Below, piece by piece: positions 7,713-47,846 of a stretch of 64,000 nucleotides of DNA (position 1 is its first letter; every line of letters begins with the position of its first letter). The position numbers and the translations under genes are program-made. The notes beneath the pieces were generated by a model. The model ran no database searches, had not been told where the DNA came from, and saw only the letters and a program-made list of their open reading frames with translations. The DNA is from Winogradskyella aurantiaca (GTDB lineage: Bacteria; Bacteroidota; Bacteroidia; Flavobacteriales; Flavobacteriaceae): NCBI RefSeq assembly GCF_003362725.1, contig NZ_QKTV01000001.1, forward strand, positions 558,001 to 622,000. Direction: 5' to 3'.

Positions 7713-7758
7713 AAAAATTAATTTGTGAGGTTCTCGACCTCTGTTATTAATGAGGGCG

Positions 7759-25029: not shown

Positions 25030-25059
25030 ATCGACGAACTGCACTATTAAATCGATGAA
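25030..25059 (-). promoter_or_regulatory. LytTR-like tandem boxes, pair B (TTCATCGAT-N12-TTCGTCGAT)
   Basis: Minus strand: TTCATCGAT (25059-25051) and TTCGTCGAT (25038-25030), 21 bp from start to start. The proximal box ends 58 bases before the ATG of the barrel gene. Two 9-bp direct repeats two helix turns apart is the known arrangement of LytTR sites. Confidence 0.6.
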
Positions 25060-25092
25060 ATAACACAATAATTTCTGACAAATATGTTTTTT

Positions 25093-25122
25093 ATCGATAA
25101 AAAATAACATTTAAACGATGAA
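25093..25122 (-). promoter_or_regulatory. LytTR-like tandem boxes, pair A (TTCATCGTT-N12-TTTATCGAT)
   Basis: Minus strand: TTCATCGTT (25122-25114) and TTTATCGAT (25101-25093), again 21 bp apart, 63 bp upstream of pair B (six helix turns), so both pairs lie on the same DNA face. Confidence 0.55.
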
Positions 25123-25355
25123 TTTACGAAAATATGGTTTATGAATTCTATATTTACAAATCTTCTTTATGCCCTATTCACGTAAGAAGATAACATTTTA
25201 ATCCATTGAGCTGCTAAGTTTAAAACTTGGTCAGCTTTTTTTGTACCCTGTAGGTCCCTCCCTAAACCAATTAATTATCCATTCTTCCCTCAGAACAATC
25301 GCTGTTGCGATTCATGTTTATTAAAACTATTGGTGTAACCCTAAAATATGAACTT

Positions 25356-25523
25356 ATGAAAGCCCTAAAAATTACATTAGCTTTGGTAGCTATTCTAGTA
25401 CTAACTGTTTCTGGAGTAAAATCTCAAGATGTCACTCCTGAGCAACCAACTTATAAGGAGTATAGTCCTAAAGACCTTATTGCTGCAGAAAAGAAGAAAT
25501 TGAAGGTAGGTTCTAACGGATAG
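25356..25523 (+). CDS. Small secreted peptide of unknown function
   Basis: 55 residues: signal peptide of 24 (MKALKITLALVAILVL then TVSGVKSQ) and a mature part of only ~31 residues, DVTPEQPTYKEYSPKDLIAA plus EKKKLKVGSNG. The ATG at 25356 is chosen because the signal peptide starts there; an in-frame ATG at 25305 would add 17 residues. It has its own terminator (25548) and lies just before a histidine kinase gene, so it could be a signal, a stress protein or unrelated. Family not recognised. Confidence 0.6.
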   Translation: MKALKITLALVAILVLTVSGVKSQDVTPEQPTYKEYSPKDLIAAEKKKLKVGSNG

Positions 25524-25547
25524 TTAGAATCACAACCTCTATAATCT

Positions 25548-25577
25548 AGTCCAAATAGTCTGCTGTTTGGACTTTTG
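25548..25577 (+). terminator. Terminator after the small peptide gene
   Basis: AGTCCAAA/TTTGGACT, 8-bp stem with 10-base loop, followed by TTTTGTT. Confidence 0.8.
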
Positions 25578-25641
25578 TTGCTCCATAAATTTCATGTTTT
25601 AAAAATTAGTCTATTTTTGAGTTAAGACTAATTATCCCACA

Positions 25642-27675
25642 TTGAATCGAATAAGGCAATTCATATTTTTAGGTCTGATACTTATTTCATGCTCTGGTTT
25701 TTCTCAAGACATATTGCAGGCTAATAAAACTATTGATAGTCTGATATTTATTTGTAGGAACAGTAATCGATCTCCTGAAGAACGGTTGAAACTTGCATTT
25801 AAAGCGGAAAAAATTGCTACCCAATTAGATGTAGACTCCATAAAGGTTAAGGTGTGGAGAACTCTGGCTTTGATGCATCAGGCTAATAATGATCTGGACA
25901 ATTATGTAAAAGTCAATGCGGATTATTTAGAGTTAGCCTCTAAAATAAAAGACACTTTTTCAATTTCAGCGGCCTCAGCGAATTTAGGATCCTATTATCG
26001 ATATGTTGCGCAAAACGATACAGCCTATTATTATTTGAACAATGCCTTAAAATACTATGGCGAAAACGAGTTTTCAATAGGAAAAGCTGAGACCCTTTAT
26101 ATTCTGGCAGATATACAACATGTTGCAAAAATTTATGATGGGGCAGAATCTGATGCCGTAAAAGCATTAAAAGTCTTAGAAGGTATAGAGACTTCTGAGC
26201 AGTCATTAGATGCGTACTCAAACGTTTATAATTTATTGGCAATCATCTCACAGGACTTAGGAGAAAATGAGAGGGCAATCTCGTATTATAATCAATCTAT
26301 CGACTATGCCAATAAAATGGAGGATGGTTATATAAATGTAGTTTATGCCCAAAATAATATAGCAAGTTCTCTAAGAGATTTAAAAAGGTACCAGGACGCT
26401 CTTGAAATATTGGAAGATATTGAAAGTCAACTAGAGCGATATGAGTCTATAGATCCTTCATTTTATGGGACCATTATCAATAATATAGCATTAACTGAAG
26501 TGGAGTCAGGTCAGTTTAACTTCGAAGATGCTGAACAAAAATATAAGCTGGCAAGTCATATTTGTCTACAGAATGATTATCCAAATGGGTACTTAAATGC
26601 ACTTTTAGACTTATCAGAGCTCTATTTGATAGGTTCTTATCAAGATTCTGTCAGAAAATATGGTAAAATTTCGTTAGAAATGGCTGATGATTTGATCTCT
26701 AATCAAGCCAAACAACGGGCCTTATATTTACTCTCAGAAGTTACACAAGGTGAAGCTGGAAAAAACTATTTAAGGGAGCATATAAGACTTGAGGATAGTT
26801 TAGAAGCGGAAGAACGTTTGGTCCGTAATAAGATTGCTCGAATTAAGTTTGATACCGACCAGCTTCAGGCTAAGAATGAGCAAATCTCAAAAGAGAATTT
26901 TTACTTGCTAATTCTTTCAGGAGCTTTGTTGCTTACTGGGTTATTGGTGTATGTCATTATAAGCCAACGGGCCCGTAACAAAGAGCTGCGTTTACGACAA
27001 GCGCAGCAAGAGGCTAATGAGGAAATCTACAACCTGATGCTGAATCAGCAGGATAAAATTGAAGAGGCCCGAAGTGCCGAAAAGATTCGTGTTTCCAAGG
27101 AGCTACATGATGGGGTGTTGGGACGTTTATTTGGGGTGCGTCTAAGCCTGGACAGTCTCAATTTTTCGGAAGGGAAAGAAGCAATGACCAATAGGGGTAA
27201 TTATATCAATCAATTAAAAGGCATTGAAGAGGACATCAGAAAAATTTCCCATGAAATGAATACCGACTTTGTAGGTGGAGCTGGATTTACAGACATATTA
27301 AGCGATTTGGTAGAGACTCAGGCAACAGCTTATGACCTTAAATTCGAATTCAATTGTTCCGACGATATTAACTGGGAAGTCCTGTCTAATAAGTTGAAGA
27401 TTAACTTGTACCGTATTGTTCAGGAATCCATGCAAAATATTTACAAACATGCCCAGGCTACGACAATTCGCATTGCAATTTCGTTAATTAATAACGACCT
27501 TTGTTTAGAGGTGACAGATGATGGACAAGGATTCGATGTCAATAAACAGCGACGTGGAATCGGATTAAAGAATATGTCTTCTCGCGTAAATGAAGTCAAT
27601 GGAACTGTGAAGTTTCAATCAAAAATTGGGGACGGAACCACTGTAAGCGTTCTTATCCCAGGGGATCAATTATGA
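25642..27675 (+). CDS. TPR sensor histidine kinase (NarX/HisKA_3 type)
   Basis: 677 residues. Signal peptide (1-22), periplasmic TPR repeats (about 60-370), a coiled coil, one membrane helix (around 421-441, FYLLILSGALLLTGLLVYVI), then a HisKA_3 domain with KELHDGVLGRLFG (His near residue 490) and HATPase motifs (DDGQGFDV, GIGLKNMSSRV). The start is TTG. Kinases of this build in Bacteroidota pair with LuxR/NarL-type regulators, here encoded next with a 4-base ATGA overlap. Signal unknown; TPRs suggest protein or peptide binding in the periplasm. Confidence 0.9.
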   Translation: MNRIRQFIFLGLILISCSGFSQDILQANKTIDSLIFICRNSNRSPEERLKLAFKAEKIATQLDVDSIKVKVWRTLALMHQANNDLDNYVKVNADYLELASKIKDTFSISAASANLGSYYRYVAQNDTAYYYLNNALKYYGENEFSIGKAETLYILADIQHVAKIYDGAESDAVKALKVLEGIETSEQSLDAYSNVYNLLAIISQDLGENERAISYYNQSIDYANKMEDGYINVVYAQNNIASSLRDLKRYQDALEILEDIESQLERYESIDPSFYGTIINNIALTEVESGQFNFEDAEQKYKLASHICLQNDYPNGYLNALLDLSELYLIGSYQDSVRKYGKISLEMADDLISNQAKQRALYLLSEVTQGEAGKNYLREHIRLEDSLEAEERLVRNKIARIKFDTDQLQAKNEQISKENFYLLILSGALLLTGLLVYVIISQRARNKELRLRQAQQEANEEIYNLMLNQQDKIEEARSAEKIRVSKELHDGVLGRLFGVRLSLDSLNFSEGKEAMTNRGNYINQLKGIEEDIRKISHEMNTDFVGGAGFTDILSDLVETQATAYDLKFEFNCSDDINWEVLSNKLKINLYRIVQESMQNIYKHAQATTIRIAISLINNDLCLEVTDDGQGFDVNKQRRGIGLKNMSSRVNEVNGTVKFQSKIGDGTTVSVLIPGDQL

Positions 27676-28340
27676 ATCACATCAACATCCTAATGGTGGA
27701 CGACCATCCCATCATTATTGAAGGCTATCAGAATGTGCTGATGGCTTCCAAAAAAGAAGACCAAACTCTTTTAATCGATACAGCAAATAATTGTGACATG
27801 GCAGTTACCATGATTCAGCGTGCTGCCAAAAGTCAGCCTTATGATGTTTGCTTTTTTGATATATCGCTTCCCGGTTCCAGTGATGGTAAGTATACCTCTG
27901 GTCAAGATTTAGCCTTATTGGCACGCCAGGTGCTGCCCCATGCCAAGATTGTGATTCTGACCATGTTTAATGAGAGTTTTAGAATTCATAATATTATCAA
28001 GGAAATTAATCCAGATGGATTTTTGATAAAAAGTGATCTAACCTCTATTGAGCTCACGGATGCCTTCCAGCAGATTCTTAGGTTTCCTCCTTACTACAGT
28101 AGTACGGTTACCAATTATTTGAAAAAGGTAGTAGTGAGCCAGATCAACATCGACGATATTAATCGCAAGATTCTACACTTCCTTAGCCAAGGCGTCAAGA
28201 CCAGGAGTCTTGGGGAGTATGTTGGATTGTCCACTAGTGCGATCGAAAAACGAAAAAAGCAGCTCAAATTATTGTTTTCCGTCACGGATGGTAAAGACGA
28301 AACCTTGTTAAAGGAGGCTAGAGATAAAGGGTTTCTGTAA
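27672..28340 (+). CDS. Response regulator, NarL-like
   Basis: 222 residues. Receiver domain with MVDDHPIIIEGY (acidic pair Asp11-Asp12), phosphoacceptor in CFFDISLPG and switch Thr in VILTMFN. The C-terminus (from about 160) is a helix-turn-helix like region, SQGVKTRSLGEYVGLSTSAI then EKRKKQLK, shorter and less regular than classical LuxR domains. The start overlaps the kinase gene (ATGA), so they form a two-component pair. Confidence 0.88.
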   Translation: MNHINILMVDDHPIIIEGYQNVLMASKKEDQTLLIDTANNCDMAVTMIQRAAKSQPYDVCFFDISLPGSSDGKYTSGQDLALLARQVLPHAKIVILTMFNESFRIHNIIKEINPDGFLIKSDLTSIELTDAFQQILRFPPYYSSTVTNYLKKVVVSQINIDDINRKILHFLSQGVKTRSLGEYVGLSTSAIEKRKKQLKLLFSVTDGKDETLLKEARDKGFL

Positions 28341-28486
28341 TTAGCACCCTTCGAATTACGGTTTTTCCGCATCAAGTTTACGGTTTTCCCACAACAAAAA
28401 GTCAGTTCGTCAAATTACCTTTACCAAGTCAACAAGAACGAGATTGATCCCTCTTTAGTTTATTGTTGAATTAATAGCAAGTTGTA

Positions 28487-28529
28487 AACCTAATAGAAGA
28501 GCGACCGATGTGATTCTATTAGGTTTTTT
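28487..28529 (+). terminator. Terminator after the response regulator gene
   Basis: Perfect 12-bp stem AACCTAATAGAA/TTCTATTAGGTT with a 15-base loop, then TTTTTTG; 146 bases after the stop. Confidence 0.8.
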
Positions 28530-28532
28530 GTG

Positions 28533-29009
28533 TTATATAATGATCCAGATAAACAGCCCCAGGTAGACCACCGCTACACTAAACTTTATAAATGTTGAAG
28601 CTAAAAACCCCATTAAAGATCCATAAGCAGCTCTCAGTGCATGTTGACTGTCTTGTTGATATAACAGTTCTCCAATTAAGGCTCCTACAAATGGCCCAAT
28701 GATAATACCAAAGGGTATTGGGGCTAAAATTCCTATTATTAATCCCAGAGTGGTGCCCATCATACCATAGCGTGATCCGCCATATTTTCGAGTTCCTAGA
28801 GCAGGAATAATGTAATCCAAAATATAAATAACTAAGGCAATAATAAAGGTAAGTACCAGCGTACTAGTTGAAATTGATACGTTGTCCGAGAAACTCAAAA
28901 CTAAGAGTCCAATCCAGCTAGTAAGGGGGCCTGGAAGAATAGGGACAAAACTACCTAAGACCCCTAAGAGCATCAACAAGGAGGCTACTATGATTAAAAA
29001 GATATCCAT
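28533..29009 (-). CDS. DUF456 membrane protein
   Basis: 158 residues with about four to five hydrophobic segments and Gly/Pro-rich turns (GSFVPILPGPLTSWIGLLVL, then IPFGIIIGPFVGALIGELLY), the DUF456 pattern. No known function. It lies alone between a terminator and the divergent BlaI operon. Confidence 0.8.
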   Translation of the reverse strand: MDIFLIIVASLLMLLGVLGSFVPILPGPLTSWIGLLVLSFSDNVSISTSTLVLTFIIALVIYILDYIIPALGTRKYGGSRYGMMGTTLGLIIGILAPIPFGIIIGPFVGALIGELLYQQDSQHALRAAYGSLMGFLASTFIKFSVAVVYLGLFIWIII

Positions 29010-29052
29010 GTAACTAACAAGTCGACCTAAATGTTAAAAAGTTACAATTTTA

Positions 29053-29084
29053 ACTAAGCAGTTAGTTTAAACTAAAAACTTAGT
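29053..29084 (+). promoter_or_regulatory. Double BlaI-type operator
   Basis: Two dyads of one form, ACTAA-N4-TTAGT, at 29053-29066 and 29071-29084, 18 bp apart, directly before the BlaI gene. BlaI/MecI repressors bind such short dyads as dimers, so autoregulation is likely. Confidence 0.65.
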
Positions 29085-29111
29085 TATATTTATAATCTAA
29101 ATTACACACCT

Positions 29112-29471
29112 ATGAAACAATTGACCAAGGCAGAGGAGGAAATTATGCAGGTGCTCTGGGAGTTACAGAAGACTAATGTTAAGGGGATTATCGAACATTT
29201 ACCAGAATCCAAACCAGCATATAATACAGTATCTACCATTGTTAGAATTTTAGAGAGTAAGGGATTTGTTAGTTATGAAAAGCAGGGGAAAGGTCATGTG
29301 TATTTTCCACTGGTGCCTAAGAGTGATTACAGTAATCAAAGTCTCCATAAGTTGGTAGATAATTATTTTCAAGGATCCTTTAAGAGTATGGTGTCCTTTT
29401 TTGTAAAGAAAAACGATGTAGATCTTCAGGACATCGAGACCTTATTAAAAGAAATCAATAAAAACGAATAG
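29112..29471 (+). CDS. BlaI/MecI/CopY-family repressor
   Basis: 119 residues. The winged-helix part (LTKAEEEIMQVLWELQKTNV, YNTVSTIVRILESKGFVSYE) and the C-terminal dimerisation helix (DLQDIETLLKEINKNE) are complete. In the classical system the repressor is removed when the M56 protein of the next gene is activated. Two dyads lie in its own promoter. First gene of a four-gene operon. Confidence 0.92.
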   Translation: MKQLTKAEEEIMQVLWELQKTNVKGIIEHLPESKPAYNTVSTIVRILESKGFVSYEKQGKGHVYFPLVPKSDYSNQSLHKLVDNYFQGSFKSMVSFFVKKNDVDLQDIETLLKEINKNE

Positions 29472-29473
29472 CT

Positions 29474-31018
29474 ATGTTACATTACATTATACAAGTGGTG
29501 GCCTTTCAGGTTTTATTTCTTGTTGTCTATGATTTGTTTTTAAGGCGTCAGACCTTCTTTATTTGGAACCGAATCTATCTATTGGTCACTAGTTGTTTAT
29601 CACTAGCACTTCCTTTTATTAAGATTGGTTTTATATCCGACTTTGGATCAGAGATTGGGGTCATCACCTTGCCAGAGGTGGTATTGGGTAGTACAGAAGA
29701 ACTATCACCTATGAGCCAGGCTGCCATGAATGTAGCGGGTATTAGTACAGAGCCAGCAACAACCCCTGTATGGCAATGGGTATTGCTCAGCGGATCAATT
29801 GTGTTTTTAGTCATCTTACTAATCAAAGGACTTCAATTAGCAATGATCGTTTCAAAAAGTCCGAAGCGTTGGCAAAATAATATATTGGTGGTTAGACTTC
29901 TGAACAGTCATCAGGCCTATTCCTTCTTTAATAGTATTTTTCTGGGTTCTAACATCGCAAAAGAGGACCAAGAGGTCATATTGGAACATGAAATGGTGCA
30001 TGTCCGTCACGGGCATAGTCTGGATATTATGTGGTTCCAAATACTTAAAATTGCCATGTGGTTTAATCCTGCTGTTTACTGGTATCATAACCGCATTGTA
30101 GAACTACATGAATACACAGCTGACCATAAGGTCATCTCATCAGATCAAAAACAGTCTTATTATGAAAATTTGTTAAAACAAGCCTTTGGTGTCCAGACCT
30201 TGTCTCTAACCAATGCCTTCTTTTCAAAATCCCTACTTAAGAAGCGCTTACATATGATGCAGCAAGGGCCTACTGGAAGAAGAAATTACTGGAGGTACGC
30301 ACTCGCTATACCATTAATTATGGGCATGTTGACTTATGTGGCTTGTGAAAAAGAGGTATTAGAATCCAATGATTTTACTCAAGAAATTGAAGTAGAGCAA
30401 CTGTCCTTTATTATTGATAAAGATCAGTTCCCAAAAATAAGTGATCACCCGGGATATCTAAGGATTGAAAAGTTCATTGCTCAACATCCTGAATATGTCA
30501 TTAAGTTAGAACTCGCTCAAAATGAGTCAAAACTATCTGTTATTCATAAAAATAATCTGCCAGAGGATTCTTTTAAGATTACCACTGACGATGAGTTAAG
30601 TATGTATCTGGTCACTGATAAACAAACCCTAATTAACAAGATACAGAACTATTCAAATGAAGCTGAGGTTCCCTACTCAGTAATAGATCAGGCACCCACC
30701 TTTGAATCTTGTGACGGATTAGTTGGTGATGAACGAAAAAAATGTACCTCTATGGAAGTGGCTAAATTTGTTAATCAGAACTTTAACACCAACCTGGCTT
30801 TAGACCTAGGATTGACTGGGAGACAACGTATCTCTGTCTTTTTTAAGATTGATAAAAACGGTGACGTAACTGATGTTGGTGCCAGAGCACCTCATGAAGC
30901 CCTTGAAGAAGAGGCCAAGAGGGTAATTAACGCACTTCCAAAGTTTATTCCAGGCGTTCATCATGATGAAACTGTAGTAGTCCCTTATTCCTTACCTATA
31001 TTATTTCAAGTGCAATAA
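29474..31018 (+). CDS. BlaR1-like M56 metallopeptidase with TonB-C-like tail
   Basis: 514 residues. Three or four N-terminal membrane helices, the zinc motif HEMVH (LEHEMVHVRHGH, about residue 174), a further membrane helix near 275-293 (YALAIPLIMGMLTYVAC), and an extracytoplasmic part. The last ~110 residues (QRISVFFKIDKNGDVTDVGA, PKFIPGVHHD) resemble a TonB C-terminal domain. The expected role is to sense an envelope signal and cleave BlaI in the cytoplasm. It follows the repressor by two bases and overlaps the next start. Confidence 0.88.
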   Translation: MLHYIIQVVAFQVLFLVVYDLFLRRQTFFIWNRIYLLVTSCLSLALPFIKIGFISDFGSEIGVITLPEVVLGSTEELSPMSQAAMNVAGISTEPATTPVWQWVLLSGSIVFLVILLIKGLQLAMIVSKSPKRWQNNILVVRLLNSHQAYSFFNSIFLGSNIAKEDQEVILEHEMVHVRHGHSLDIMWFQILKIAMWFNPAVYWYHNRIVELHEYTADHKVISSDQKQSYYENLLKQAFGVQTLSLTNAFFSKSLLKKRLHMMQQGPTGRRNYWRYALAIPLIMGMLTYVACEKEVLESNDFTQEIEVEQLSFIIDKDQFPKISDHPGYLRIEKFIAQHPEYVIKLELAQNESKLSVIHKNNLPEDSFKITTDDELSMYLVTDKQTLINKIQNYSNEAEVPYSVIDQAPTFESCDGLVGDERKKCTSMEVAKFVNQNFNTNLALDLGLTGRQRISVFFKIDKNGDVTDVGARAPHEALEEEAKRVINALPKFIPGVHHDETVVVPYSLPILFQVQ

Positions 31019-32145
31019 TGAAACGAATTGTCCTACTCTATATATTGGCGTCTATCGGGGCCTGGGCGCAATCTGGTATTCAGGAGGCCGATAGTCTTTT
31101 TAAATTAGGTAATTACTCCAAGGCGATAGCGATTTATAAGCAAAACAGCCAACATCATGAGGCATCTCAAAAACTAGCTTTATCCTATCAGGCACTTGGT
31201 AATTATCAACAGGGGTTGCAGTATTATGACAAAGCAGTTCTAGCTCATCCAGAAAATCTATTCTTGCGCTACGAGCAGGCTAAACTATTGCGAGCATTAA
31301 AGAAGTACGATGTGGCTAAAGAGGGCTTTCAGACACTTATTCAGAAAGACTCGCTCAATCCTAATTTTTATTTCGAAATGGGAAAACTGGCCGAGCAAAC
31401 AGGTGATTCTTTGGCTATCAACTACTTCAACAAGACCTATAATTTAGATCCACAACACCAAAAAACCATTTATAAGATTGCCCGATATAAAATGGTAAAG
31501 CGAAAGCATATAGAGTCTAATGAATATGTAGACAGAGGACTTAAGTTGTATTCAGAGAATGTAGAACTCATTAGCTTAAAAGCTCAGAATTTCTATTGGA
31601 TGCAGGATTATGAAAAGGCTATTTTCTGGTTTGAGAAACTCATTGCCCTTGGTGAAAAATCGGAGTTGATCTATGAAAAACTAAGCATCAGTCAGGCTGA
31701 GAATTACGATTATGAGAAGGCGATTGCTTATCGAAAAAAGGCTTTGGCATATAATCCTGAAAATGCCGATGCCCATTACGCTATTGGTATTTACTATGAG
31801 TATCTTCACAAATTTGCAGAGGCGGAAGAGCATGTGGCGTTAGCTATCAGTCTGAAAGATGAAAAACTATCCGATGAATATCAAAAGTTAGGGGTTTTGC
31901 TCAATAGGCAAAAAAAGTACCCTCAGGCTATTGAGGCCTTTAAAAAGTCATTGAAGGAGGATCCTACTAATATGAGCTCAGACTTTTTTATGGCCATGTC
32001 CAAAGATCAGTATTATGAGGACATTGATGCCCGTATAAAAGTGTTTAAGGATCTGGAAAGCAAATACAGCGATTCTCCATTTGCCACATTTGCAAGTAGG
32101 CGCTTAGAAGAACTCCGCGAGGAAAAATTTAACACGCAGGACTAA
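31018..32145 (+). CDS. Secreted TPR protein
   Basis: 375 residues with a signal peptide (about 1-18, ending GAWAQ). At least eight TPR-like repeats follow from residue 20 to 330, with typical blocks such as SYQALGNYQQGLQYYDKAVL and KYPQAIEAFKKSLKEDPTN. It should act as a periplasmic scaffold. Its ATG overlaps the stop of the M56 gene, so it belongs to the BlaI/M56 operon and may be part of its sensing complex. Confidence 0.82.
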   Translation: MKRIVLLYILASIGAWAQSGIQEADSLFKLGNYSKAIAIYKQNSQHHEASQKLALSYQALGNYQQGLQYYDKAVLAHPENLFLRYEQAKLLRALKKYDVAKEGFQTLIQKDSLNPNFYFEMGKLAEQTGDSLAINYFNKTYNLDPQHQKTIYKIARYKMVKRKHIESNEYVDRGLKLYSENVELISLKAQNFYWMQDYEKAIFWFEKLIALGEKSELIYEKLSISQAENYDYEKAIAYRKKALAYNPENADAHYAIGIYYEYLHKFAEAEEHVALAISLKDEKLSDEYQKLGVLLNRQKKYPQAIEAFKKSLKEDPTNMSSDFFMAMSKDQYYEDIDARIKVFKDLESKYSDSPFATFASRRLEELREEKFNTQD

Positions 32146-32187
32146 ACTCTAAAAAAATTGTACTTTTCAGTTTCAGAAGTATTCTTC

Positions 32188-32658: not shown

Positions 32659-32660
32659 GA

Positions 32661-33518: not shown

Positions 33519-33558
33519 AACGCAGTAGTCTAGCCTAAAGCTACTAAAAAAGTTTTTT

Positions 33559-34689: not shown

Positions 34690-34693
34690 ATTT

Positions 34694-35656: not shown

Positions 35657-35683
35657 AACACAAATTAAATCAATTCTGTATAG

Positions 35684-36873: not shown

Positions 36874-36940
36874 TCTTATTAATTCATGATTCTGGGAGAT
36901 TCTGCCTAATATCAAATTCTGAACTTGTATTTTTACCTAT

Positions 36941-41137: not shown

Positions 41138-41138
41138 T

Positions 41139-41510
41139 ATGGCTTTACACATTGATCAAATTCGCGATTATTGTCTTGCTAAGCAGCAGGTGACCGAGTC
41201 GTTTCCATTTGATGAAGACACGCTGGTCTTTAAGGTGGCCAATAAAATGTTCTTATTGATTTCTTTAAAACGCTGGGAGCAGGGCGATGGCTTTATCAAT
41301 TTAAAATGTGACCCGGATTGGGCCCAGGAATTACGGGCTGAATATGAGAGTATCCAGCCTGGTTATCACATGCACAAGTGTTTATGGAATAGTGTCTATG
41401 CCCAAACAGGGAAGTTAAGTCCACAGTTTGTTAATGAATTAATAGACCATTCGTACGAGCAAGTAGTCAAGAGTCTTCCAAAAAAGTTGAGAGCGACTAT
41501 CAACCTTTAA
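41139..41510 (+). CDS. MmcQ/YjbR-family protein
   Basis: 123 residues. FPFDEDTLVFKVANKMFLLI, INLKCDPDWAQELRAEYESI, and YHMHKCLWNSVY are the standard blocks of the YjbR/CyaY-like fold. A DNA-binding role is proposed for the family, with no known target. One base after the cyclase gene. Confidence 0.88.
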   Translation: MALHIDQIRDYCLAKQQVTESFPFDEDTLVFKVANKMFLLISLKRWEQGDGFINLKCDPDWAQELRAEYESIQPGYHMHKCLWNSVYAQTGKLSPQFVNELIDHSYEQVVKSLPKKLRATINL

Positions 41511-41620
41511 AACCATTGGCCGATATATACATGCATTCTAACTACGTTTAAAGTAGATCAAACGAAATTTTTTAGCAATTGGTTCTGTAACAATTATTTT
41601 TTCAAGTTAAGCGAAATACT

Positions 41621-42031
41621 ATGAGATCTTTAAAGATTCTTTTAATTGAAGACGACACTATTGAGGTCATGAAATTTAATCGGGTTGTTGATTCTTTGAG
41701 TCTTAGGCATGAAGTTCAAATATCTCAAAATGCCGAAGAAGCCTTAAAATATTTAAATGAGAACGATACACTTCCGGATCTAATACTTTTGGACCTAAAC
41801 ATGCCAAAAATCAATGGCTTAGAATTTTTAAAACTTTTAAAAAATGATGCCAGATTAAGATACATGCCAACGGTTATTTTAACAACTTCCAATAATCAAA
41901 GGGATCTAAAACAATGCTATAAGTTAGGTATAGGGGGTTATTTATTGAAACCTCTTAAATATGAGGACTATATTTCTAAAATTGAAAAATTATTGGCATA
42001 TTGGAGTATCAATGAATTGATTAAGGTATGA
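41621..42031 (+). CDS. Single-domain response regulator (CheY-like)
   Basis: 136 residues, receiver only. Acidic pair in LLIEDDTIEV (Asp11, Asp12), phosphoacceptor Asp58 in LILLDLNMPKINGLEF, switch Thr in VILTTSN, and Lys in LKP. Without an output domain it should pass phosphate on or act by binding. First gene of the H-NOX operon; the ATG of the H-NOX gene overlaps its stop (ATGA). Together with the HPt protein encoded two genes later it may act as an intermediate of the relay. Confidence 0.93.
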   Translation: MRSLKILLIEDDTIEVMKFNRVVDSLSLRHEVQISQNAEEALKYLNENDTLPDLILLDLNMPKINGLEFLKLLKNDARLRYMPTVILTTSNNQRDLKQCYKLGIGGYLLKPLKYEDYISKIEKLLAYWSINELIKV

Positions 42032-42567
42032 AAGGAATAATATTTACAGAATTTCTTGATTTGGTTGAAGACAAATTTGGTCTGCCAATGGTGGATCAGA
42101 TTATCCAACAATCGGAATTAGCATCGGGTGGTATATATACTTCTGTTGGAACTTACGAGTTTTCAGAAATGTTACAACTCTTAACACATTTAAGTAATAA
42201 TACCTCCATGTCTATCGACGATCTTCTGATGGTTTATGCTGAACACCTTTTTGCTGTTTTGATTAATTCTTACCCTCACCTCGTAGAACGCTATAAAGAT
42301 CCCATGGAACTCTTAGCATCCATCGAAAATCATATTCATGTAGAAGTTCAAAAGATATATCCAGAAGCCCAATTACCAACTTTTGATTTAGTTGAACGAC
42401 AGGAAGATAAGATGATAATGATTTACAAGTCTGAGCGCGCATTGTACATGCTTGGTAAAGGTCTAATGCTGGAAACCTTCAAGTTATTTGATACTCCTGT
42501 AAAAATAGAATATGAAAAATTGAATGAGAAAGGAACAGAAGTAAAGTTTTCAATAAATAAAATTTAA
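42028..42567 (+). CDS. H-NOX heme-based gas sensor
   Basis: 179 residues, the length of a stand-alone H-NOX domain. MKGIIFTEFLDLVEDKFG is the common start. The proximal heme ligand is His104 in HIHVEVQKIYPEAQLP, seven residues before Tyr111 as in soluble guanylate cyclase and Shewanella/Vibrio H-NOX. The heme-propionate motif Y-x-S-x-R is intact (Tyr133, Ser135, Arg137). H-NOX proteins bind nitric oxide (some also O2) and control a partner kinase. No distal-pocket tyrosine typical of O2 binders was recognised, so NO sensing is favoured. The kinase gene starts four bases later. Confidence 0.92.
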   Translation: MKGIIFTEFLDLVEDKFGLPMVDQIIQQSELASGGIYTSVGTYEFSEMLQLLTHLSNNTSMSIDDLLMVYAEHLFAVLINSYPHLVERYKDPMELLASIENHIHVEVQKIYPEAQLPTFDLVERQEDKMIMIYKSERALYMLGKGLMLETFKLFDTPVKIEYEKLNEKGTEVKFSINKI

Positions 42568-42570
42568 TGA

Positions 42571-44157
42571 TTGGTTGACGAAATACAAATATTAAAACGA
42601 GCATTAGAGAGGGAAAGATTTTCAAGAAAGGCGGCTGAAGAAATTTTAGAAGAAAAGTCTGCAGAACTTTATGAGGCAAAACGGAAATTAGAGGAAAGTC
42701 ATAATGAATTATTAAAGCTTTATGGTAATGCCAGTTCACAATTACAAGGTGTTTTTGAGAATATTGTGGATCCCTATGTGATTATGGATTTATGGGGTAA
42801 TCCACTAAAGATGAATGATGCAGCTATCGACTTATTAGACTACGAAGAAGCCAACAAAAAAGACAGTTTATTGCAGTTTGTAAATCCAGAGGATCTTGAG
42901 ATAGTCACAGCAGCATTTAAAACGTTAATTACAAAAGGGTCTTTGACTGGTTTTAAGCTTCAACTAGTAACAGCTAAAAGACTAAAAAAGTATGTTCATA
43001 TCAATTGTAGTATCATCTACGAAGACGGCGTCGCTGTGGCAGCTCAAGGTGTTTTGAGGGATATTACTGAGGAAATAAATTATCAGAAACGAATTGAAGG
43101 TGAACGGGAGAAATATATGAATATCATTAATAATATGAACCTTGGTCTTCTTGAGGTTAATATTAAGGATGAAGTTCTATTTGTCAACCAACGATTCTGT
43201 AAGATTTCAGGATATTCTAAGGAAGAATTACTTGGTAAACAGGCTGGAGAACTAATCCCATTATCAAATGACAAGGAAACTATCAAACAAGAGAATGCTA
43301 ATAGATTATTAGGGGAATCCAATTCATATGAAATTAAAGTCTTAACCAAATCTGGAGAACTAAGAAACTGGTTGATTAGTGGAGCGCCAAATTATAATTT
43401 AAAAGGCGAGGTGATAGGCTCAATTGGTATTCATTTAGATATTACAGATTTTAGATTGTTACAAAGCGAAAAAGAAAAGTTGCTAATTGAATTGGAAAAG
43501 AGTAATGAAGAATTAAACGAATATGCTCATATTGTTTCTCACGATCTCAAATCACCGTTGAGAAGTATTAATGCCCTTATTAGTTGGATTAAGGAGGATA
43601 ATAAGGATTCTTTTGATCACTCTACTATTAAAAATTTTGATCTCATTGAAGCGACCTTAGAAAAAATGGAGCAATTGATTTCAAATTTATTAGACTATTC
43701 CAGCATTGGGGAGAATAATATAGAGCGTGAAATGGTAGATACCAATCAGCTTATAAAAGACTTAAAAAAGGTGCTTTATGTTCCTAAACACATAACAGTC
43801 CACATTAAAGATACACTTCCCACAGTATATGCAGATAGGATTAAACTGCAACAGCTTTTTCAAAACTTAATAAGTAATGCGGTTAAATTCAATAATAAAA
43901 ATAAGGGCGTAATCGAAATTGGTTGTGAAGAACAGAAAGAGAGATATCAATTTTCAGTTTCAGATAATGGAATTGGGATTGATCCTAAATACCATGAAAA
44001 GATTTTTAAAATATTTCAGTCCTTATCAGATGATAAGGAATCGAGTGGTATTGGTTTGTCTATTGTTAAAAAAGTAGTTGACTTACATAGTGGAAAAATA
44101 TGGTTGGAATCTGAGCTAGATAAAGGTTCTACATTTTACTTTACAATGAAAAAATGA
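42571..44157 (+). CDS. PAS-domain histidine kinase, partner of H-NOX
   Basis: 528 residues, no membrane helix, so cytoplasmic. Order: coiled coil (1-55, ILKRALERERFSRKAAEEIL), two PAS domains (about 58-170 and 182-295), HisKA with SHDLKSPLRS (His324), and HATPase_c (LFQNLISNAVKF, SDNGIGIDPK, SSGIGLSIVKKVV). Start TTG at 42571; no ATG fits the frame. The coiled-coil segment is the kind found in soluble kinases that work with H-NOX. The start is three bases after the H-NOX stop and the end overlaps the HPt gene, so it should be the H-NOX-controlled kinase. No receiver domain is fused to it. Confidence 0.9.
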   Translation: MVDEIQILKRALERERFSRKAAEEILEEKSAELYEAKRKLEESHNELLKLYGNASSQLQGVFENIVDPYVIMDLWGNPLKMNDAAIDLLDYEEANKKDSLLQFVNPEDLEIVTAAFKTLITKGSLTGFKLQLVTAKRLKKYVHINCSIIYEDGVAVAAQGVLRDITEEINYQKRIEGEREKYMNIINNMNLGLLEVNIKDEVLFVNQRFCKISGYSKEELLGKQAGELIPLSNDKETIKQENANRLLGESNSYEIKVLTKSGELRNWLISGAPNYNLKGEVIGSIGIHLDITDFRLLQSEKEKLLIELEKSNEELNEYAHIVSHDLKSPLRSINALISWIKEDNKDSFDHSTIKNFDLIEATLEKMEQLISNLLDYSSIGENNIEREMVDTNQLIKDLKKVLYVPKHITVHIKDTLPTVYADRIKLQQLFQNLISNAVKFNNKNKGVIEIGCEEQKERYQFSVSDNGIGIDPKYHEKIFKIFQSLSDDKESSGIGLSIVKKVVDLHSGKIWLESELDKGSTFYFTMKK

Positions 44158-44477
44158 ACATGGAGCAGCCCAATTTAATCTACATTAAATCTATGTCTGG
44201 AGGGAATCAAGCCTTTGAACAAAAACTTATAGGCATCATCAAGCAGGAGTTTCCGAAAGAAGTTGAGATATATCTTACGAACATGTCATTGAAGGAATAC
44301 AGAAAAGCAGCTGACAATGTTCATAAACTTAAGCATAAAATTAGTATTTTAGGATTGCAAAAGAGCTATGCAATAGCTCAGGATTATGAAAAGAATCTTT
44401 TGGAAGGAAGTACAATTCTAGAAGCTGACTTTTCAGATATTATTCGCCTTATTGCAGACTTTTTAGAAACTCAATAA
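44154..44477 (+). CDS. HPt phosphotransfer protein
   Basis: 107 residues, all helical. The phosphorylatable His57 lies in NVHKLKHKISILGL, matching the HPt pattern A-H-x-L-K-x-x-x-x-x-x-G. It links a receiver to a second receiver in a multistep relay, here presumably the CheY-like protein and the LytTR regulator of the same operon. Overlaps the kinase gene by four bases. Confidence 0.88.
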   Translation: MNMEQPNLIYIKSMSGGNQAFEQKLIGIIKQEFPKEVEIYLTNMSLKEYRKAADNVHKLKHKISILGLQKSYAIAQDYEKNLLEGSTILEADFSDIIRLIADFLETQ

Positions 44478-44483
44478 ATTAAT

Positions 44484-45191
44484 ATGAACTGTATAATCAT
44501 TGACGATGAAGCGGCTGCAAGAGCAATCATAAGTCAGCTATGTGGCCAAGCTCCACAAGTGAATGTCATTGAAGAATTTCCTAACGCTATTCAAGCCATC
44601 AAATTCTTAAACCAGAATGAAGTAGATCTTATTTTTCTAGATATTCATATGCCTGATTTTACAGGGTTTGATTTTATTGAAACGATAAAAAACCCTCCTA
44701 AAATTATACTTACAACATCGGATACTAACTTTGCTATCCAGGCATTTGAGTATGATTGTATAGTTGACTATTTAGTCAAGCCTATTTCGCTCGAGCGCTT
44801 TCAAAAGGCCATAAATAAAGCTGAGGCTTCTTCCGTAAATGCCTCCTCAAATTCCTCGGATAAGGTAGAGACGACCTCAGGTAATGATTTGTATGTGAAT
44901 ATAGACCGTAGGCTTATTAAAATAAATATTCCAAGTATTTACTTAGTGGAAGCACAAGGAGACTACATAAGGGTGAAAACTGAAAATAAGAACTACACCG
45001 TTCACTCAACTTTGAAGAAAATTAAAGAGAAATTGCCTGACTCCATCTTTCTTAAGGTTCACAGGTCATATATAATAAATATCAATAAAATAGTTGATAT
45101 CGAGGATAATAGCGTTTTAATTAAGAAGGATATTATTCCTGTTTCTCGTTCCAATCGACCTGAACTTATGAGGCGCCTCAATATGCTTTAA
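44484..45191 (+). CDS. LytTR-family response regulator
   Basis: 235 residues. Receiver with IIDDEAAARAI and phosphoacceptor Asp53 in IFLDIHMPDFTGFDFI; LytTR DNA-binding domain from about residue 135 (YLVEAQGDYIRVKTENKNYT, FLKVHRSYIININKI, VPVSRS-like end). It is the output of the H-NOX relay. LytTR proteins bind pairs of ~9-bp direct repeats 21-22 bp apart. Boxes of that kind occur three times in the 2.3 kb just downstream and twice before the barrel gene at 25.0 kb. Confidence 0.93.
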   Translation: MNCIIIDDEAAARAIISQLCGQAPQVNVIEEFPNAIQAIKFLNQNEVDLIFLDIHMPDFTGFDFIETIKNPPKIILTTSDTNFAIQAFEYDCIVDYLVKPISLERFQKAINKAEASSVNASSNSSDKVETTSGNDLYVNIDRRLIKINIPSIYLVEAQGDYIRVKTENKNYTVHSTLKKIKEKLPDSIFLKVHRSYIININKIVDIEDNSVLIKKDIIPVSRSNRPELMRRLNML

Positions 45192-45555
45192 GATTTAGTT
45201 TTCGGTTTTTCCTTTAGTTCCTGCTAGCTGTTGTTTAACTGCATTGTTATTCTTCATGTTCCAATTCGTTTTGCAAACAATAGGCTAAGTATTCATTATC
45301 TGTAAATAGACTACCACATTTATTTCGAGATACTAGGTTTAATAAAAACTAATCAACACAAAACCTTCTAATATCGTATCCCTTTTTATTCTAATCAGAG
45401 CGTAGCCGATTAACTGTATATAATATTCTTTAAAAGACACTAAAATGCTATTCGTCGAAATATAAATGTTTTCCAGTACTAGAGATTTACTTTAGTATTC
45501 AAAATAATCTTAACTGTTAATAGAATTTGAACAAAAGTAATTTAACATAAAAACG
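45192..45555. other. Intergenic region after the H-NOX operon
   Basis: No gene in 364 AT-rich bases. Toward its end it holds the LytTR-like box (45451) and start region (45505) of the 65-residue gene. No clear terminator for the operon was seen. Confidence 0.5.
45451..45459 (+). promoter_or_regulatory. LytTR-like box TTCGTCGAA before the 65-residue gene
   Basis: TTCGTCGAA, 45 bases before TAATC at 45505. The partner box expected 22 bp upstream is poor (TTTAAAAGAC), so this is the weakest of the three downstream sites. Confidence 0.5.
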
Positions 45556-45753
45556 ATGGAAACAAAAACAAACTATATAACAGAAATAATTGAAGAGCTA
45601 AAAGGCCTTCCTGATTATAATGATTTAGACAATGATGATAAACAAGTTGGATACTTAGAAGGGGTTTGCGATTGTATAAATGTAATTGTGAAACATTCAG
45701 ATAGAATTTTGGAAAGGTGTGGAAAAATTTATCAGAAAATTGAGAATATTTAA
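45556..45753 (+). CDS. Small acidic protein of unknown function
   Basis: 65 residues: METKTNYITEIIEELKGLPD, an acidic linker (YNDLDNDDKQVG), then a Cys-containing helix (LEGVCDCINVIVKHSDRIL). No signal peptide or known motif. It looks coding because of its balanced amino acid use and because a LytTR-like promoter precedes it; a longer frame on the opposite strand (45542-45958) has a less protein-like composition. An 8-bp stem GCTTAATA/TATTAAGC follows at 45766-45785 but lacks a T-run. Confidence 0.5.
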   Translation: METKTNYITEIIEELKGLPDYNDLDNDDKQVGYLEGVCDCINVIVKHSDRILERCGKIYQKIENI

Positions 45754-46113
45754 AGCTTTTACCATGCTTAATAATTATATTAAGCAAACTTTGGTACAAA
45801 GCCTTCTTTTGCTCACTAATAAGGGCAGTTCCGCTCATCATATTGATACTTTCATTACTAAATGTCATATAATCAATATGATTATCTTGTGGCTTTTTAG
45901 GCCTCATTATTACAATTATCAAACCGTGCCAATTACATCTTTTAAAAGTAGAATTCAAACTTGAAGAAAGCAGAACGCTTATCTGATATTATTTCACTTT
46001 ATTATCTTAGAATACGATAGTAATTCATGCGATAAGTATAAAAATGATAAATCGGCACAGCGTGTTCTTGAATCATAGGGAGTTATAGACAAACCATATA
46101 TGGATTATATCCC
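45754..46113. other. Gap with inverted repeats
   Basis: No supported gene. Two clean inverted repeats: GCTTAATA/TATTAAGC (45766-45785) flanked by ACCA and TGGT, and CATATTGAT/ATCAATATG (about 45839-45881). A weak LytTR-like box TTCATGCGA lies at 46024-46032, 82 bases before the next gene. Confidence 0.4.
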
Positions 46114-46572
46114 ATGAAGATTGGAATAATTATGATTTTTCAGAATAATGAGAAGAACATTGATTGGAAGTTTTTTTTACAACACCTTGAAAAGTCAAAA
46201 CCTATTAAATTTTGTCTGGTAAACAACGGTAGCACGGATGACACTGGTTTGCTACTAGTAGAGATTACAGAGGGCTGCACAAACGTATCTAGCGTACATA
46301 TAAAGAGATTGAAAAAAGAAAAACTTGCCATAAGGGCTGGGGTGCGGTATTTATGGAATGAGTATGGTATCGAATGTATAGGCTTCGTTAATACTAACGA
46401 TTTTAGAAACAGCCGAGATTTTGAAAGTCTAATGAAAGACCTGGTCTCAAAAGCAAATCATCTCTTATCCTACAAATCTAATACGCATGAAAATTACCAA
46501 TATAAACGGCCCATTTTACAGAGTCTCTTCCCACTTAAAGCTTATTTAGACAGTTCCAGTTTGGACATCTAA
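46114..46572 (+). CDS. Short glycosyltransferase-2-like protein
   Basis: 152 residues. The first half follows the GT2 pattern: MKIGIIMIFQNNEKNIDWKF, then FCLVNNGSTDDTGLLLVEI, as in the nucleotide-sugar binding part of GT-A enzymes. The DxD region expected next reads VNTNDFRNSRDF, so a normal metal site is missing, and the acceptor half of the fold is absent. It could be a truncated gene or a short GT-like protein with another role. No signal peptide. It stands alone in the protein-poor region after the H-NOX operon. Confidence 0.55.
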   Translation: MKIGIIMIFQNNEKNIDWKFFLQHLEKSKPIKFCLVNNGSTDDTGLLLVEITEGCTNVSSVHIKRLKKEKLAIRAGVRYLWNEYGIECIGFVNTNDFRNSRDFESLMKDLVSKANHLLSYKSNTHENYQYKRPILQSLFPLKAYLDSSSLDI

Positions 46573-46819
46573 TCAAGATTAAATTTTATCGCACTTAATC
46601 AGAAATATCTTGTATTACCTTTTAAAGTTTCAGATATATCAGGAAAACTCTCTTGAGCAATTTTAACACGTTTTGAATAAATATCGGCGGTCTATTTAAC
46701 ATCATAGAATTAATTCGTTTAGATTCGTTTTTAGGGATGTTGTTGCTATCATAAATAACTTTAATACGCCTTATTTAGTGTTTGACGCGTAAATGAATTA
46801 GTCTATATAAACAATGTTG

Positions 46820-46850
46820 TTCATCTAAACATCATCTGCTACTCATCGAA
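46820..46850 (+). promoter_or_regulatory. LytTR-like tandem boxes before RNA gene A
   Basis: TTCATCTAA (46820-46828) and CTCATCGAA (46842-46850), 22 bp from start to start; 47 bases then lead to TAATCATTGCTA, the presumed start region of the RNA. Confidence 0.6.
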
Positions 46851-46897
46851 ATAAGTAATAATTCATGAAAATAAAATGGATATTTAAAAGTAATTAG

Positions 46898-47068
46898 TAA
46901 TCATTGCTAATCTTAATTAATTTAATTTTTGTTCCCTAGAGCCGCAAGGCTCTTTAATAAGATTCTTGCGGTTTTATAAAAAAATGTAGATTGATTTATG
47001 GAGTAATTTTAAATAATTTGTTTGGTTGGTTTGGGGAATGTTCTTTTAGCATTCCCTTTCTTTTTTTT
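46898..47068 (+). ncRNA. Structured small RNA A, LytTR-linked
   Basis: About 170 bases. In order: TAATCATTGCTA at the presumed start; hairpin with CCGCAAG/CTTGCGG (46942-46971) followed by TTTT; AAAAATGTAGATT; GGTTGGTT (47024-47031); and a terminator GGGAATG/CATTCCC (47034-47056) with a long T-run. A rival hairpin AGAGCC-GCAA-GGCTCT (46938-46953) shares bases with the first and excludes it. All blocks recur in the same order and spacing in RNA B. No open frame fits. The family was not recognised; the flavobacterial Rfam families such as Flavo-1 should be tested. Confidence 0.55.
47033..47068 (+). terminator. Terminator of RNA A
   Basis: GGGAATG/CATTCCC stem, 9-base loop, followed by TTTCTTTTTTTT. 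Confidence 0.85.
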
Positions 47069-47448
47069 GCACATCGGTATAGAGCAATAAAGTGTCTTTA
47101 AAAACACAGATACATACCGATAATCTACTCAAGAATGTTCAAGACAATAAATATAGCTCGAAGCCATTATTATGTTATAACAGATAAAAATAAAGAAACA
47201 TTTAAAGTATTAAATTAAGGATACATTGATTGGAAATTTTCCTTTGATAATGTCATTAGGTTTATTCATAGTATTAAATCATGCTTTTTTTTGATATTTC
47301 AATATACGTTTTGATAATTTATTGATGTTTTGTTAGTACAAGTTTATCTTAATTATGGTAGCGTATGTTAGAGGGCCAGTTACATAAAGAACTTTTTTAT
47401 AAAGGTATATGGGTCACATAATTCAGGTGGCCGATATAAGTAATACAA

Positions 47449-47479
47449 TTCACCTACACTAAATGTATTATTCATCGAA
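47449..47479 (+). promoter_or_regulatory. LytTR-like tandem boxes before RNA gene B
   Basis: TTCACCTAC (47449-47457) and TTCATCGAA (47471-47479), 22 bp apart; 44 bases then lead to TAATCATTGCTA. Between them CAATTTG (47514-47520) resembles a weak -7 box. Confidence 0.65.
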
Positions 47480-47523
47480 AGGATTGCAAAAATTTTGAAA
47501 TATTTACGACTTTCAATTTGTAT

Positions 47524-47714: not shown

Positions 47715-47846
47715 GTTTTTGATATTGCGGTAAAGTGAGCTAATGGGCAGTATGAATACAAGAAACAGATACTTTCCTGTGACTAATCCAAATATGGTAA
47801 TGGCAGCAAGGCCTACCATGATCCAGTTTTTTGTGCTTTGCTTCAT
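47712..47846 (-). CDS. Small membrane protein, 44 residues, leaderless mRNA
   Basis: Starts MKQSTKNWIMVGLAAITIFG, continues into a hydrophobic stretch (LVTGKYLFLVFILPISSLY) and ends RNIKN. Two short membrane helices or one long one. A perfect promoter on the minus strand (TTTG at 47881-47878, 19 bases, TATTTTTG at 47858-47851) ends only four bases before the ATG, so the transcript should begin at or next to the start codon. The frame and promoter together make it a real gene, although no family was recognised. Confidence 0.65.
   Translation of the reverse strand: MKQSTKNWIMVGLAAITIFGLVTGKYLFLVFILPISSLYRNIKN

Follow-up and report, generated by a model that had tools for sequence, protein, structure and literature searches.

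Paired direct repeats around a flavobacterial H-NOX gene cluster as likely operators of its LytTR response regulator

Introduction

Which protein, if any, reads the short direct repeats that recur in front of several transcription units in a 64,000-nucleotide stretch of the Winogradskyella aurantiaca genome (hereafter the window; NZ_QKTV01000001.1, positions 558,001 to 622,000), and which genes would it control? A first-pass annotation had described these repeats as a 9-mer, TTCRTCGAW, arranged in LytTR-like tandems at “five promoters”, and had proposed a regulon comprising an outer-membrane barrel protein, a small protein and two small RNAs. The present analysis addresses the nature of the boxes, the identity of their reader and the membership of the regulon.

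Results

The boxes are genuine tandem repeats. Exact matches to the 9-mer lie at 25030 and 25051 on the minus strand and at 45451 and 47471 on the plus strand; the barrel gene is preceded by two minus-strand pairs with a 21-bp pitch (25059/25038 exact, 25122/25101 with one mismatch in each box), candidate sRNA1 by a tandem with a 22-bp pitch and one mismatch per box (46820/46842), candidate sRNA2 by the exact box at 47471 with a diverged partner 22 bp upstream at 47449, and the 65-aa gene by a single exact box. The distances of 44, 45 and 47 bases reported between the proximal box and TAATC at the three downstream sites were likewise correct. On the other hand, the text accompanying the “five promoters” covers only four, and the additional operator in the window is that at 41516–41570, preceding an operon that encodes an H-NOX protein. 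The first-pass annotation is silent on this operon, on this operator and on a wider conserved regulon.

Yet the 9-mer alone barely exceeds chance. Its four sites in the window compare with 1.64 expected and at least four are found in 6 of 100 shuffles, which is not significant, while with one mismatch allowed 48 matches are observed vs 45.9 expected; the 9-mer on its own was consequently dropped as evidence. The informative motif is longer and is defined by its pitch and by its distance to a −7 element.

Table 1. Predicted features of the window (positions counted from its first nucleotide)
Feature	Position	Strand	Details
Box pairs upstream of OMP_b-brl_2 barrel gene (24240–24971)	25030–25122	−	separate, less certain class
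Predicted operator/promoter of REC-H-NOX-HK-Hpt-LytTR operon	41516–41602	+	matrix score 21.6, 42-bp spacing
Parts of the 41516 operator		+	box 1 41516–41527; middle CTAAC box near 41537; last box 41558–41570
Stand-alone receiver (REC) protein	41621–42031	+	Pfam Response_reg 2.9e-21
H-NOX haem NO-binding sensor	42028–42567	+	Pfam HNOB 2.8e-36
PAS-HisKA-HATPase histidine kinase	42571–44157	+	
Hpt phosphotransfer protein	44154–44477	+	Pfam Hpt E 0.0079, 16.9 bits, below cut-off 24.6
REC-LytTR response regulator, proposed box reader	44484–45191	+	235 aa; LytTR 2e-21, Response_reg 2.1e-19
Predicted operator of 65-aa gene	45430–45495	+	degenerate box 45430–45441, box 45451–45463; score 6.4, spacing 21
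65-aa protein	45556–45753	+	no detected relatives
Predicted operator of candidate sRNA1	46798–46854	+	boxes 46798, 46820, 46842, 22-bp pitch; scores 3.1 and 6.1
Candidate small RNA 1	46895–47068	+	hairpin 46937–46976; second hairpin and T-run 47033–47068
Predicted operator of candidate sRNA2	47449–47483	+	box 1 47449–47460, box 2 47471–47483
Candidate small RNA 2	47522–47716	+	CCGC/GCGG hairpin 47563–47607; terminator 47681–47716

A histidine and a YxSxR motif define the haem site of H-NOX proteins, and both are present in the protein encoded here (His102; YKSER, residues 133–137). The gene content of an H-NOX phosphorelay is complete, with kinase, Hpt protein (below the Pfam cut-off) and response regulator adjoining H-NOX and the LytTR regulator being the final gene of the operon; a Pfam search detected no receiver domain in the kinase. 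In the comparison set, made up of the best 80 orthologous loci of the regulator (73–84% identity), H-NOX lies upstream of the regulator in 77 loci and the full five-gene set is present in 75, a relative of the Hpt protein being found by tblastn (E ≤ 1e-4) in all 80.

The longer operator consists of ACCATTCRTCKACACT-like boxes at a pitch of 21 or 42 bp. Its geometry was determined on 234 sites collected, like the lists of RNA-like units mentioned below, with a matrix whose training set comprised all 80 loci: the spacing is 21 or 42 in 197 of them and 22 or 43 in 32 more. The Bacteroidetes −7 element, TAnnTTT[GA], took no part in the training; it was not found at 87 of the 234 sites, and of the 147 elements that were found, 134 are located 37 or 38 bp from the point where the last box begins. 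The predicted operators comprise two or three direct repeats, with spacers matching the LytTR form (10–13 bp). In W. aurantiaca the fixed promoter distance holds for the operators at 41516 (TATTTTTT at 41595–41602, +37) and 45430 (TACTTTAG at 45488–45495, +37) and for a further site outside the window, preceding the gene of a secreted VWA-domain protein; it fails for both candidate RNAs, the sRNA1 promoter having no −7 element within one mismatch and that of sRNA2 having it at +42 instead of +37/38.

The four best sites found in the window by a matrix blind to this genome are 47449, 41516, 45430 and 46820, all at or just behind the operon. Four sites score above 6 and two above 20, and none of 200 shuffles, with all spacings allowed, yielded either four sites above 6 or any above 20; indeed, the sRNA2 operator (24.1) exceeds the best site of all 200 shuffles (19.4). 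The sites at 45430 and 46820 reach scores of no more than about 6, a level at which each shuffle yields 0.51 sites, and the score of the 41516 operator drops to 0.3 if only spacings of 20–24 bp are permitted. In the whole genome, the cross-genome consensus with at most two mismatches retrieves three sites, belonging to sRNA1 (two mismatches), sRNA2 and the VWA gene; with up to three mismatches the reversed control gives 23 matches vs 13 for the pattern, so that only the matches with at most two stand out.

Conservation was assessed with matrices trained on the other half of the loci and with a hold-out of distant genera. Within 600 bp past the regulator an operator scoring above 10 is present in 73 of 80 loci, with a median of 33.8 on the coding strand vs −8.7 on the opposite strand; the 99% background value of this test (26.8) was not taken as a cut-off because it is inflated by further true sites. 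An operator upstream of REC, about 94–148 bp before the gene, is present in all 67 assessable loci (scores 19.7–43.9). In all eight held-out loci of Aquimarina, Dokdonia and Spongiivirga the two best coding-strand sites are the one upstream of REC and the one downstream of the regulator. The intervening sequences have diverged, any blastn match over the 260 bp past the regulator being found in only 179 of 3160 locus pairs.

The downstream operators would control in part a protein gene and in part, presumably, RNA. The 65-aa protein has no Pfam family and no relative in 298 other genomes of the family. The stretches 46810–47080 and 47440–47720, containing the two candidate RNAs, can be aligned with 155 of 257 ungapped columns identical, and the hairpins have fold z values of −4.9 and −2.8 (sRNA1) and −2.2 and −3.3 (sRNA2). 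In the orthologous loci an operator precedes a terminator-ended unit lacking a 60-aa open frame in 22 of 80 cases, amounting to 24 distinct units (from 26 site calls, some triple arrays having been counted twice), with such units doubled in loci L014 and L046. These units might be nothing but the terminator of the regulator operon with its spacer. The operon should in any case end in a terminator, and the sequences of the units vary; blastn with sRNA2 in 60 genomes (its own and 59 relatives) retrieved its own copy and otherwise only fragments of 26–41 bases, A/T-rich by eye, in five relatives. However, the operators are located between the stop codon of the regulator and the terminators, the window RNAs lie 1.7–2.5 kb past the regulator, and two-sided changes preserving pairing affect 9 of 10 pairs of the terminator stem; a mere terminator and spacer thus seems the less probable origin, though it retains appreciable weight.

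Homology among the RNAs was less informative. The covariance model R1 matches sRNA2 with E values of 0.0022 (47627–47716) and 0.28 (47513–47611), and its best matches in the W. aurantiaca genome lie elsewhere than at the window RNAs; therefore R1 mainly detects a promoter-like start and a terminator and is no proof of homology to these RNAs. Similarly, in alignment A2 (27 units, i.e., 26 of 41 hand-picked plus one read by eye in L020) the −7 columns are conserved by construction, because units without a clear −7 element, and most second copies, were left out. blastn with sRNA1 gave no clear second copy in its own genome (best other match E 0.009 over 27 bases). Rfam, applied to the window and to selected loci, gave nothing that attained a gathering score at a candidate RNA, either in the window or in four orthologous loci. 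Matches far weaker than required were disregarded, among them one to mir-4436 (27 bits vs 74 needed) in the stretch downstream of the regulator in L040.

The regulon had been proposed to include the barrel gene, and here the evidence is divided. Its boxes form an exact 9-mer tandem and, together with the VWA site, represent the only two exact tandems in the 3.1-Mb genome, the control giving none. On the other hand, the matrix score is −6.8, the −7-like element lies at +31 and not at +37/38, and the 260 bp preceding barrel homologues were devoid of the 9-mer (up to one mismatch) in 10 other genomes, nine of which lie outside the set of genomes with HNOB. Furthermore, a pair that resembles these boxes, with 21-bp pitch and a single mismatch, precedes an unrelated small gene on C17, suggesting that another regulator serves barrel-type boxes. 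The barrel-gene boxes are a genuine repeat outside the class common to the other sites, and the gene probably falls outside the H-NOX/LytTR regulon; shared membership we regard as unlikely. The small gene and the two RNA-like units keep their place in it as predicted members.

As to the reader, the genome encodes seven LytTR proteins, including that of the operon, and therefore one of the other six, or an unrelated factor, could read the boxes with the H-NOX operon as a mere target; an operator upstream of the operon is what an outside regulator would also have. Against this stand the clustering of the sites near the operon, those with at most two mismatches lying within 25 kb of H-NOX and on the same strand in 25 of the 27 HNOB genomes having such a site, and the finding that all 12 genomes with a site of at most one mismatch carry HNOB, vs 104 of 299 family genomes overall, kinship being ignored in both counts. 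Moreover, the LytTR protein is alone among the five operon products in having a recognised DNA-binding domain. The strict string pattern, with its one fixed spacing, has no match in 77 of the 104 HNOB genomes and occurs in 10 genomes without HNOB, the reversed control also having matches in 10 genomes. A different reader is accordingly improbable, and the suggestion that the adjoining 235-aa LytTR protein reads a LytTR-type tandem is supported by the footprinting in the 80 orthologous loci. Finally, the explanation that a short A/T-rich motif recurs at random, compatible with the near-chance frequency of the bare 9-mer, is refuted for the extended motif by the shuffles and by its retention in loci whose spacers have diverged.

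Discussion

The paired boxes near the NO-sensing gene set are likely landing sites of its regulator; many marine bacteria have them next to this gene set too, ahead of the sensor genes, of genes for surface proteins and of short RNA-like units. More precisely, we assign a probability of roughly 0.8 to the reading that they are operators of the LytTR regulator encoded at 44484–45191, by which an H-NOX phosphorelay would control its own operon, surface or exopolysaccharide genes and RNA-like units. NO, the presumed signal, would bind the haem of H-NOX and alter the activity of the kinase, and phosphate would then pass from the kinase to REC, to Hpt and to the receiver of the LytTR protein, an order suggested by gene content. 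The regulator would bind short direct repeats, two or three in number and with a 21-bp pitch, the last just upstream of −33, and probably activate a TAnnTTTG promoter located 37–38 bp from the point at which the last box begins. Its targets in this genome would be the short gene, the two RNA-like units and, elsewhere, the secreted VWA-domain protein; in relatives they would include DUF6923 and DUF4114 proteins, CAP-domain lipoproteins, UDP-glucose dehydrogenase, a receiver-glycosyltransferase and RNA-like units about 60–100 nt long.

A broader proposal can be advanced only tentatively, being somewhat less probable than its negation, namely that a NO-responsive LytTR relay extends throughout the Flavobacteriaceae and switches surface adhesins and exopolysaccharide through fast-evolving small RNAs of its own, encoded right behind the regulator as a counterpart of LuxO/Qrr. 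In the Vibrio pathway H-NOX/HqsK–LuxU–LuxO–Qrr, as outlined in PMC6759604 and PMC8738867, an H-NOX-controlled kinase likewise passes its signal to an Hpt protein and to a response regulator placed over small RNAs, which here are candidates. The Vibrio system differs in employing LuxO and a hybrid kinase, whereas the window has a LytTR regulator, a separate REC and a kinase without a Pfam receiver; furthermore, the window regulator is encoded beside its proposed targets. The HnoC network of Shewanella oneidensis, in the account given in PMC8738867, is also an H-NOX kinase pathway with transcriptional feedback on the hno regulon, but HnoC is a repressor relieved by phosphorylation, whereas the position of the conserved LytTR-type feedback operator suggests activation.

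The canonical LytTR site is a pair of 9-bp repeats separated by 10–13 bp, with triplets in the case of RcoM1 and CoxC (PMC11347149), and autoregulated LytTR systems are known (PMC6193735). With such operators the window operators would share promoter-adjacent tandem direct repeats, 12–13-bp spacers, the occurrence of pairs and triplets, and autoregulation; they differ in box sequence, in the Bacteroidetes promoter and in the H-NOX phosphorelay input. FopS, a family of paralogous small RNAs of Bacteroides (PMC11697453; RF04319), likewise consists of short Bacteroidota RNAs present in several copies, each combining a single-stranded 5′ part with a terminator hairpin. The candidate window RNAs have no FopS match. 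A weak FopS match at 46428–46497 on the minus strand, off the candidate RNAs, was rejected (24 bits vs a gathering score of 56).

For a Bacteroidota H-NOX system, of which we found no report in the open-licence literature, the analysis yields a concrete predicted operator code and a list of targets. It makes control by NO of surface attachment in marine flavobacteria, with a possible biofilm or exopolysaccharide output, directly testable. In staphylococci the LytTR response regulator AgrA drives the operon that encodes it as well as a regulatory RNA, RNAIII. AgrA is also S-nitrosylated by NO, according to PMC6769237. The window regulator would resemble AgrA in having its own operon and RNAs as proposed targets and a link to NO; AgrA differs in responding to a peptide signal, in being affected by NO on its own cysteines and not via H-NOX, and in belonging to another phylum. 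The system described here is likely a further example, beyond the Firmicutes, of small RNAs under the control of a LytTR regulator.

The H-NOX operon and its relatives

The regulon appears, on its sequence, to belong to an H-NOX phosphorelay and to have the operon of this phosphorelay among its own predicted targets. 5′ of the LytTR regulator are found a Hpt-like protein, a PAS-HisKA kinase, an H-NOX haem NO-binding protein, in which both His102 and the YxSxR motif are present, and a stand-alone receiver (REC), the whole stretch constituting a candidate NO-sensing phosphorelay operon (see Table). The Vibrio H-NOX–HqsK–LuxU–LuxO–Qrr pathway, as outlined in part of PMC6759604, resembles in its mode of working what the sequence predicts for the present system, and the predicted feedback is reminiscent of Shewanella HnoC (part of PMC8738867); a description of an H-NOX–LytTR regulon of Bacteroidetes was not found among the papers listed by searches of an open-licence library.

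A regulator search of genome contigs, of whose at least 568 matches the best 80 were kept (73–84% identity), yielded loci from Winogradskyella, Psychroserpens, Lacinutrix, Algibacter, Aquimarina, Dokdonia and other genera. By tblastn over these 80 loci, relatives of the kinase, of Hpt and of the regulator are each present in 80 and H-NOX in 77, L036 being a locus for which tblastn found no H-NOX match; REC has a match in all 80, yet in L049, L080, L084 and L092 this match sits on the regulator or elsewhere. The complete five-gene set occurs in 75/80 loci, the incomplete ones including L049, L080 and L092, which are short upstream, and L084, whose fetched stretch stops at H-NOX. Across loci L014–L093 the spacing varies in the region between H-NOX and Hpt, H-NOX and the regulator being ~2 to 6 kb apart, so that extra or larger kinase genes seem to be present in the relatives' operons.

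A conserved, predicted operator

Beyond the regulator stop codon many loci display ACCATTCRTCKACACT, then TCGAAAAT and then the Bacteroidetes −7 element TAnnTTTG, the consensus being that of an excerpt of PMC7366714. In a two-way cross-validation, with a two-box matrix from each half of the loci scoring the other half, the coding strand of the 600 bp 3′ of the regulator gave a median of 33.8, with >10 in 73/80 loci, and the opposite strand of the same 600 bp a median of −8.7. Over the 260 bp 3′ of the regulator, blastn finds similarity of any kind in 179 of 3160 locus pairs, so that the boxes stand out against diverged spacers. Furthermore, 5′ of REC the scores are 19.7–43.9 in all 67 assessable loci, the best site being ~94–148 bp ahead of REC, and in a distant hold-out the REC-upstream and regulator-downstream sites are the top two coding-strand sites in 8/8 loci, the weakest being that of L088 (9.2 vs 6.0 on the opposite strand).

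Among 234 sites scoring >20 with a matrix from all loci, the spacing is 21 in 101, 42 in 96, 22 in 23 and 43 in 9; TAnnTTT[GA] was located for 147 and not found for 87, and lies 37 or 38 bp from the start of the last box in 134 of the 147. Known LytTR sites, as described in parts of PMC11347149 and PMC6193735, consist of short repeats that come in pairs or triplets and are separated by 10–13-bp spacers, a form that the pitch and the fixed −7 distance of the predicted operator fit.

Sites in the window and in the genome

Scanning the 64 kb on both strands with a matrix trained without the own genome returned the predicted operators listed in the Table. None of 200 dinucleotide shuffles of the window contained a site >20 (maximum 19.4) or four sites >6; as the shuffles average 0.51 sites >6, the predicted operators of the 65-aa gene and of candidate sRNA1 convince by position rather than by score.

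Predicted operators and other features of the window
Feature	Position	Strand	Remarks
Candidate phosphorelay operon	41621-45191		
Regulator	44484-45191		receiver + LytTR domain
Predicted operator, H-NOX operon	41516	+	matrix 21.6, triplet spacing
Predicted operator, 65-aa gene	45430	+	matrix 6.4
Predicted operator, sRNA1	46820	+	matrix 6.1; 46798 (3.1) part of this array
Predicted operator, sRNA2	47449	+	matrix 24.1
Model R1 match	47627-47716		E 0.0022
Model R1 match	47513-47611		E 0.28
152-aa protein	46114-46572		
Paired sites, barrel gene	25090-25101		
TPR histidine kinase, then response regulator	25642-28340		adjoining barrel gene
S16-Flavobacteria ribosomal leader	7717-7751		over Rfam gathering score

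A −7 element lies at +37 for the operators of the H-NOX operon, the 65-aa gene and a gene for a VWA-domain secreted protein; for sRNA2 the closest is at +42, and for sRNA1 none was found within one mismatch. In the own genome the consensus occurs with ≤2 mismatches in three places, namely sRNA1, sRNA2 and upstream of the VWA gene (matrix 23.9); the 10 further matches at 3 mismatches are noise, because the reversed control gives 23 at ≤3.

The first-pass annotation had started from the 9-mer TTCRTCGAW, whose four exact occurrences, box spacings and TAATC distances were all confirmed. The exact tandem pair occurs in only two places of the 3.1-Mb genome, the barrel gene and contig C3 (reversed-pattern control, 0), but the bare 9-mer barely surpasses the shuffles. 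Indeed, the exact count is 4 against 1.64 expected, 4 being reached in 6/100 shuffles, and the ≤1-mismatch count (48 vs 45.9 expected) is at chance level, which makes the bare 9-mer weak evidence.

Predicted targets and RNA-like units

Within 2.5 kb 3′ of the regulator, 133 sites score >10, in 78/80 loci; they precede an open frame of ≥60 aa (98 sites), a terminator-ended short unit (26 sites, corresponding to 24 distinct units in 22 loci) or neither (9). Pfam assigned sampled proteins of the predicted targets to DUF6923, DUF4114, CAP, UDP-glucose dehydrogenase, receiver and receiver-glycosyltransferase, no family being found for one of the seven. The short units have in common a terminator stem, with two-sided changes in 9/10 pairs, and, in hand-picked rows, GTAATCA and GATTAATAG. 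R1, a covariance model of these units, matches the window twice (Table) and has higher-scoring matches in the own genome outside the window RNAs; homology of the latter to the relatives' units is at most suggested. The 152-aa protein, which has a homologue at the same position in Psychroserpens burtonensis (L087), contains a stretch reminiscent, by eye, of glycosyltransferase family 2, without a Pfam match.

Co-occurrence with H-NOX

Of 299 Flavobacteriaceae genomes, 37 contain the strict pattern (≤2 mismatches), 104 contain HNOB and 10 match the reversed control. HNOB accompanies the pattern in 27 of the 37 and is missing from 10 (Fisher 5e-7, kinship ignored), the pattern not being found in 77 of the 104 HNOB genomes; with ≤1 mismatch, 12/12 genomes have HNOB (Fisher 2e-6, kinship of genomes ignored). 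In 25/27 genomes a site lies ≤25 kb from H-NOX on the same strand, at ~0.5 kb ahead (8 sites), 3–7.4 kb behind, 12.8–22.9 kb behind or, once, 4.8 kb ahead. Of the distant sites one, that of L123, lies 5′ of the gene for a receiver-glycosyltransferase.

The barrel gene and a family-wide element

The proposed set of LytTR-type operators, shared by RNA-like units and a small gene, stands as a prediction; its extension to the barrel gene is probably wrong. The barrel-gene boxes score −6.8 with the matrix, the −7-like element is at +31, and in the 10 of 119 other genomes having barrel homologues the box was not found in the upstream 260 bp. Since the own genome encodes 7 LytTR proteins, another regulator may read these boxes. 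TTTATCGATAAA-type and 21-bp paired TTCATCGAT sites stand 5′ of the barrel gene and, at C17:286865 of the own genome (L188), 5′ of a small cysteine-containing gene, and are possibly read by another regulator. The response regulator adjoining the barrel gene, which has a weak AsnC-type HTH match, is a candidate for its regulation.

An 85-nt element (ACCATAACATAAGTAGGTTAAGTTCATGGTAGATTTGGGG plus terminator) was seen in the own genome (L157 1501-1585 and ~1725-1795; contig C10:93776 on) and recurs in 240/299 Flavobacteriaceae genomes, often with 2–4 matches each; for the two loci tried, no Rfam match at gathering score was found. It looks like a family-wide small RNA, and in L040 (~7280-7560, a MAG) two such elements stand in tandem behind the H-NOX regulator.
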